A stretch of 64,000 nucleotides of DNA. Source: Albula goreensis (Eukaryota; Chordata; Actinopteri; Albuliformes; Albulidae). Below the pieces are notes generated by a model that ran no database searches, had not been told where the DNA came from, and saw nothing but the letters and a program-made list of their open reading frames with translations. The position numbers were made by a program, and so were the translations under genes. Location of the stretch: the NCBI GenBank assembly GCA_022829145.1, contig CM040758.1:11464128-11528127 (forward strand), in the 5' to 3' direction. Below, in pieces: positions 1 to 3,000 of this stretch. The first letter of the stretch is position 1. Each line of letters opens with the position of its first letter.

Positions 1-3000
1 CTGGTAGTGTCCATCAGCTGTTGCTCAGCTATCTCGATTGTGAACAGTAAACTCTCTGTCAGCTCTTCTCTCTTCCCAACAATGGAGAAACCATTCCACA
101 CATACATCATTTCCTGTTCGGACAAGAGGATTGATATGATATGATATGATATGATATGATACAGTTACATGGCAAGTCTGGCAGTGCTTTAGGTTGTTAA
201 CATTGAGACTAAGCAGCAATAAGCATCTTTGGATTGCTGAGGTGACAAATGTGATTCAAGCTGCTATGGTGACAGATGTAATTCAAGCTGTAATGTTAAC
301 AGCTGTGACTCAGGTTTCTGTGGTCACAGATGTGATTCAGGTTGGTATTGTAACAGATGTGAATCATGTTGCTATAGTGAGAGATGTGATTCAGGTTGTT
401 ATGGTGTTGTTATGGTGACAGATGTGATTCAGGTTATTGTGATGAGGGCTGGATGAATGCCCTTTGACCCTTACCAGCGCTGGCACCACCAGAGGCACTG
501 GGGTGGAAGAGTTGTAGCGCCGGGCCTTCCTCACCACAAACTTCTCAGTTGGTATCGATTTTCCAGCAAACTTCAGCATCAGGCCATCCACCTGCCTACC
601 TCAGTCACAATTTTTCAAATATAAAATATACCAACATTTATTATTAGTAATTTCATTCCTTCATTTCTATCTATTAAATCAGCTAACAGGTGATATGTTA
701 TAATGCTCACGATCTCTTTACTTCTTGCATTTTTGATTATCTTAAGATATGAGAACTCCTGCCGGACCCTGTGCACTGCATCAGCCAAGCTTTAAACATT
801 TCATTTTTACACTTCTGCATTTGGGAACTCTGAAAACTATTTCAAAATGAGATTCCAACAGTCAGCACTAAGCATATGGATAGTTTAATTCATAGCCTTC
901 ATTTGTTTGCTTTCAATTAACCTATTTAAAAAAAACTATAAATCAGGAAATAATCAGGACCATAATAATGGTCAGGAAATAATATTTCTTTTTCCTCCAC
1001 AAATAACTCTTAGTTTTCTGATTGTTTTCATTTTGTCTGATCTAATGCTCTGTCACAATGCTGTTTTATATAGGTGTGGTGTGAATAAAATGAAATAAAT
1101 ATTTGTAATGTTGTTGGAAGAACAGATGGATGGATGGATGAAGAAAACAATGGTATTGATTAACTGGAGTGATTGACAGTCGATGTGGGGCACAGACCTG
1201 AATAACTCCACCACATTTTCCCCAGTTTTCTTAACTTCCTCCTCAGTGAGCATGCTCAAGATGGCAGCTTTCTGAAACACATAGATTGCCTGCAACAAAA
1301 GACAAACATGAATTACAGACATGAAGCATATTCAGACCTATAAAATGTCTATTCATGAGATCTTAAACCCAAAAGAGGATGATATTATCATGGCAAATCA
1401 AAAGCAAAATCAACAGAGAGTATTGCAAATTTCTGCAAGGTGTATTTAACTGGTAATGTTAAAAAAACCTGCATACCAGAAAGATAGCTTTTAAGGAAAT
1501 GAGTGAAACTTCTATGATTAGACTACTTAATGTTCAGATAACCTTCAATGATAGCATTTTCTAATCATGTTCAGTGTCAGAATCATTAAATATTGATAGT
1601 TCATAACTGATTATCAAAGCTTTTCTATCAGACTCAAATTGGTAGAAATGGAGATGTACTTCCTAACAGAGTTAATGAATGTATATCCATATAATACCAA
1701 TATCAGGGAACTGCTTTTGCTGCAGTACCTGGGACCAGCACCTCAGGGACCAGCCACTGCTGCTGGAAGCTCCCACATTGCACAGCTGCTTCCCAGGTCA
1801 CTCAAGAACTTCGACTGCGCCTGCGCAAGGACACACCACTCAGTTACCACACAGTGTTCCTCACAGGGACACACCACACATCAACAGCCACTGTGTTCTG
1901 CTGGAAGCAGTGGCACCACATCAGCTCCCAGTCAGCACAGGTGGTGGATCTGTGTTCTTCCCACACAGTGTTCCTTACCACTGTTCCTCAGCAATCAACA
2001 CTCCAAGAACACACCACACAGTTACTGCGCCTTACCACACAGTGTTCCTCACAGACACACACCACACATCAACCACACAGTGTTCCTCACAGAGACACAC
2101 CACACATCAACCACACACATCAACCACACAGTGTTCCTCACAGAGACACACCACACATCAACAGTGTTCCTCACAGACACACACCACACATCAACCACAC
2201 AGTGTTCCTCACAGAGACACACCACACAGTTACCCCACAGAGACCACACAGTGATCCTCACAGACACACCACACAGTTACCACACAGTGTTCCTCCCACA
2301 CAGTGTTCCTCAGAGACACACCACACAGTCAACCACACAGTGTTCCTCACAGACACACACCACACATCAACCACACAGTGTTCCTCACAGAGACAGACCA
2401 CACAGTTACCACACAGTGTTCCTCACAGACACACACCACACATCAACCACACAGACACACACACATTGCCCCACAGAGACACACCACACCTCAACCACAC
2501 TGTAACATCCCACAGTGTTCCTCACAAAGACACACCACACAGCCCTGACAGAAACATCCCACAAAGCCACCATGCTTTCACCACACAGAGAAATGGGACA
2601 TAGTCACCACCTGTCTGTCAGCACAGAAGGCTGTTATTCTGTCAATGATAAGTCATCTTACCTTCTCAAAGTATCCTTTGAGCACTGCAATCCTGGCCAC
2701 ATAGAATATTATAAGTGACCCCTGGAAAACAGGAAAGCGGTCAGGAGGAGAGGCAGTGTAAGGGCTGGGGATTAAGTAAGTGAAATAACAGTGGGTGTAT
2801 CAGTGTGGAGACAGAGCACCAGAGTGAGCAGGGTTAAATGGGGTGAATGTATTGAATGAGTGCATCTGTGGGGTGAGCAGGTCCTGGTGCTTCACTCACA
2901 TTGGGGAATTTTTCAATGTAGGGCTCCAGCAGGGCCTCAGCCTCGTCCAGATTACTCTCAGCCGTTCCTAATGGAAACACCATCCCAGACACAGAACATC

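Follow-up and report, generated by a model that had tools for sequence, protein, structure and literature searches.

A conserved ttc39b exon of Albula goreensis appears as two damaged versions beside a minisatellite, probably through misassembly at the repeat edge

Introduction

Tandem repeats cause assembly errors generally, according to one study (PMC6868369). The closest described case is that of DUSP1 in birds: in the zebra finch (Sanger) and hummingbird (Illumina) assemblies, repeat sequence was misplaced into predicted exons, and in the zebra finch the duplicated repeat copies came from different haplotypes, as reported in that work (PMC5632298).

The locus considered here lies in a 64 kb stretch of Albula goreensis DNA (the window; C18:11464128-11528127), within a 208-contig genome that totals 931,924,363 bases. 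A TTC39-family gene, ttc39b, occupies its minus strand. This gene has been proposed to act in carotenoid colouration and lipid handling. An initial annotation of the window had described one conserved ttc39b exon as broken and partly displaced into a tandem array; the present analysis bears this out and extends it, in that sequence matching the exon occurs twice on the minus strand, each time damaged and each time in exon order.

Gene and assembly context

The 25 largest contigs seen (C1-C25) measure 23.7-72.1 Mb and C26 measures 0.75 Mb; two contigs (C10 and C23) start with runs of N, which may represent withheld stretches, and three contig sizes end in 000 or 500. N is absent from the whole window and homopolymers of up to 22-23 nt are kept in sampled stretches of the assembly, which together argue against a crude nanopore draft.

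Thirteen ttc39b exon pieces other than the questioned one were located between positions 15 and 6968 (minus strand) as ungapped matches to a paralogue on contig C23, and all of them are open. The exon preceding the questioned one lies at 2662-2721 (minus strand; open, 20 residues, phase 0 donor) and the following exon piece at 1197-1289 (minus strand; open, 31 residues, phase 0 acceptor). With the questioned exon left out, the concatenated translation matches the PF10300 (Iml2/TPR_39) profile at an E value of 1e-126; when the exon pieces are included, with X at the gaps, the E value becomes 6.4e-143 and a single continuous match spans positions 2-441 of 467, in agreement with the gene family first assigned. 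Among the TTC39 members the gene is provisionally taken to be TTC39B, following the initial annotation. The reading frame through all conserved ttc39b exons is interrupted, the exon at 1729-2030 being broken, which may be an artefact.

A second tandem array, with a 27-nt unit, occupies 234-406 in an intron that separates two ttc39b exons further downstream, and the exon pieces on either side of it are open. PSIP1 neighbours TTC39B in the human gene order; in the window, PWWP-like (~32.2 kb) and IBD-like (~23 kb) pieces on the ttc39b strand were recognised, by eye only. No Rfam family matched the window at gathering scores, and no solved structure matched at E values up to 1.

The reference exon and its paralogues

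The C23 paralogue carries the exon intact, with both acceptor and donor present, as 162 nt encoding 54 amino acids, slightly shorter than the roughly 165 nt first estimated. This exon and a (CA)45 tract (L009 4448-4538) are 4 nt apart. The C23 and window genes share 75% nucleotide identity across the 13 pieces, and C23 carries a separate gene, not a second copy of the window locus. Of the intact copy elsewhere that the initial annotation had envisaged, an intact exon was indeed found, yet within this distinct paralogue.

When the genome was searched at the protein level with the C23 exon, seven matches were listed, five of them open and free of stops: C23 itself over residues 1-54, and C19, C13, C22 and C24 from residue 4 or 5 to 54, these four as judged from their reading frames. 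The remaining two had E values of 0.16 and 0.55. The nine matches of a DNA search fell in the window itself, in its array (four), in an array on C20 (three) and in C23 (one). Among the best candidates of these DNA and protein searches, which were the ones scored, there was no intact second copy of the window exon.

Six TTC39-family genes were seen in the genome (on C18, C23, C13, C24, C19 and C22), and visual comparison suggests three pairs, the arrangement expected after the teleost genome duplication. Among these six copies the QIHHLC exon type occurs only at the window locus and in C23, the other four (C19, C13, C22, C24) carrying instead the FHHMCYWELMWCF type, which we take to be that of TTC39A. 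The window exon belongs to the C23-like 12-residue type and not to FHHMCYWELMWCF, its Y being split by an extra base. A degenerate pattern for the 10-residue exon segment gave no match in collections of genome contigs and viral contigs.

The C23 gene has a minisatellite of its own (L009 2281-2539), with 6.3 units of 41 nt at 100% match, which takes in the last 12 nt of one of that gene's exons together with the adjoining 5' splice site. The donor (CAGCACTG|GTGAGC) is consequently present there as six identical tandem copies, of which splicing presumably uses the first.

Two damaged versions of the exon

The intron immediately before the questioned exon contains, at 2034-2542, a TG/CA-rich minisatellite whose unit is ~38 nt long and which directly precedes the exon. 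It is resembled by a CA-rich array of ~33-nt units at C20:25015.9-25016.2 kb (L006). Both ttc39b-type copies have a TG/CA-rich repeat at the end of this intron, at the acceptor or close to it, either as an old shared tract or through a repeated event.

Version A, defined by alignment to the C23 exon, occupies 1729-1820 (minus strand) and keeps both its acceptor AG and its donor GT. Its acceptor reads ...TTGCGCAG, followed by AQSKF from 1820, and it ends ...GGTCCCAG ahead of GTACTG at 1729, for a total of 92 nt, exactly as had been noted at first. About 75 of the 162 nt are missing in many small gaps, and the translation stops after 25 codons. Its alignment score of 56.5 was reached by none of 1000 shuffles (best 49); with looser gap costs it scored 83.8, against 77.6 for the best of 500 shuffles, none of which reached it, and 70.9 for the best piece of equal size elsewhere. 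Version A thus reads, by a modest margin over controls, as exon sequence with many deletions.

Version B, at 1885-1952 (minus strand), is a near-intact exon middle (exon positions 49-111), with 61 matches to the C23 exon, two substitutions and two insertions, of 1 nt and 4 nt. As already reported, QIHHLC is followed by a frame change of one extra base; it lies at 1952-1935 and the next 12 residues at 1930-1895. The 4-nt insertion, AACA, consists of array-like letters and separates CAGCAG from CAGTGGCTG, which are adjacent both in version A and in the C23 paralogue; the final N of FQQN, originally read as an exon residue, is better explained by this AACA. In a blastn comparison of the whole window with 70 kb around the C23 paralogue, this exon matched only at 1885-1952, and a repeat finder paired 1768-1788 with 1923-1943.

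Array units at 1821-1884 (minus strand), extending to about 1826, separate versions B and A. Upstream of QIHHLC lies further exon sequence that had been overlooked. This part C (1974-2030, minus strand) corresponds to the exon start region interleaved with array-like letters, and reads FLEC and, in another frame, IAEEQW, where the paralogue has FHEC and IAAQQQW. The C block proper (about 2003-1974) scored 25.5, a value reached by three of 1000 dinucleotide shuffles, against a best clean-array score of 11.

Taken as one version, C+B runs from 2030 to 1885 and aligns in order to exon positions 1-111. It is interrupted by 11 insertions totalling about 43 nt, mostly array-like by eye (TAACTGTGTGGTGT, GGAACACTGTGTGG, AACA), so that exon and array letters are interleaved at this locus and not copied as whole units. 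C+B scored 147.2, whereas the best of 500 shuffles reached 98.6 and the highest score of any other window piece of equal size was 100.3. In neither version can the codons between WL and RWSQ, 12 residues in the paralogue, be recognised, and the motifs AY.YA and ADLL of this missing segment are absent from all six frames of positions 1-8000.

A two-source merge model combining exon and array scored 147.7, against maxima of 114.8 with a shuffled exon and 113.2 with a shuffled unit (60 each). Models with free register outscored those in register (157.2 versus 147.7, and 198.1 versus 190.0). The use of two-source models as proof of an in-register merge was therefore abandoned, the models being too flexible and the array register through the exon not demonstrated; the merge signature is a qualitative one.

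Nature of the damage and rate of change

Under loose gap costs, C+B aligned to the C23 exon (positions 1-111) with 99 matches, 4 substitutions, 11 insertions (43 nt) and 3 deletions (8 nt), and version A with 82 matches, 5 substitutions, 4 insertions (5 nt) and 13 deletions (75 nt), which amounts to 14 and 17 gaps, respectively. Under strict gap costs the counts became 8 gaps and 11 substitutions for C+B, and 9 gaps and 13 substitutions for A. Across 1131 nt, the 13 other exon pieces carry 280 substitutions relative to C23 and no gaps, having been picked as ungapped; blastn shows a one-codon gap inside one exon and a two-codon gap bordering another exon match between the window and the C23 region. 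Judged from these alignments, the damage appears gap-rich and unlike the normal divergence of the gene, with an exact ratio that depends on gap costs.

In relative-rate tests covering 11 of the 13 exon pieces, some of them trimmed, and two of the four outgroup copies, the window copy accumulated 24 changes against 10 in C23 at the 218 sites where both outgroups agree (p 0.024). Single outgroups gave 26 versus 17 changes at 316 sites (p 0.22) and 28 versus 16 at 313 sites (p 0.10). These values suggest a mild protein-level acceleration of the window copy relative to its C23 paralogue.

Discussion

The initial annotation had left open whether the repeat had grown through the exon or the assembler had mixed reads; the exon is broken as it described, and the evidence leans to mixing by the assembler. 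We estimate a probability of roughly two in three that the scrambled stretch is a consensus, assembly or haplotype-merge error at the boundary of exon and minisatellite. Such an error at the repeat edge is most likely and a real, recent rearrangement ranks second. An intact ttc39b exon would border a minisatellite of variable length, and reads or haplotypes differing in array length may have been laid over one another out of register. In one register the exon would then have been interleaved with array letters, giving version C+B, and in the other the same exon would have been left gapped, giving version A. Both the variation in array length and the read-level cause are inferred.

This explanation is favoured because the same exon occurs twice in different registers, because array-like letters stand between exon letters in C+B where A has gaps, and because the 13 other exon pieces compared show no damage, so that damage is confined to the repeat boundary. 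The 41-nt array of C23, with whole units at 100% match and no interleaving, displays the pattern of true unit growth at an exon edge. Counting against an artefact are the substitutions, which exceed gaps under strict gap costs, and the faster evolution of the window copy, which a failing gene would show, as well as the absence of N from the window and the register models, which did not establish an in-order merge; an artefact also becomes less likely should the assembly have been built from accurate long reads.

The main rival, though unlikely, is a real and recent event in which template switching or unequal exchange, followed by slippage, rearranged the array edge in a complex way, so that the exon was duplicated and neither copy stayed intact. 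The array does abut the exon, and the inclusion of an exon end and splice donor in the C23 minisatellite indicates that an array in one of these genes is able to take in an exon boundary; there, however, array growth copied whole units. Many gaps with few substitutions would need a burst of change within a very short time, an objection that weakens if the strict gap costs are right, and block B, with 61 matches and 2 substitutions, is as well conserved as a functional gene would be. The consequence of such an event, tentatively, would be loss of the gene or a protein lacking 54 residues through exon skipping. Skipping would stay in frame, since the exons on either side meet at phase 0, the gene's function could be covered by the C23 copy, and the window copy is mildly accelerated, all of which accord with a real event; the 13 other compared pieces, on the other hand, are still open. 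Slightly less probable again is the full scenario in which the sequence is real and the minisatellite recently invaded and shuffled a deeply conserved exon in one burst, function being kept via C23 or in-frame skipping.

That the gene is an ancient pseudogene in slow decay, or that the lineage lost the exon long ago, is very improbable, for although the window copy evolves somewhat faster, substitutions and damage elsewhere would be expected, and the other compared pieces are open and block B is nearly free of substitutions.

If real, the locus would represent a gene loss caused by a repeat, very young and perhaps still polymorphic, and would show the speed at which a minisatellite within an intron is able to destroy a conserved exon. 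Whichever reading holds, exons touching tandem arrays should be checked before a gene is called lost.

Set against TTC39B, the window locus differs in that one conserved exon is unreadable. The DUSP1 errors, in Sanger and short-read assemblies, were proven with long reads (PMC5632298), whereas the window locus is judged from its assembled sequence. The bird DUSP1 errors share with the preferred reading of the window, that of an error at the repeat edge, a repeat adjoining an exon, repeat pieces within coding sequence and a partial duplication, and in both cases a mixing of haplotypes is possible (PMC5632298).
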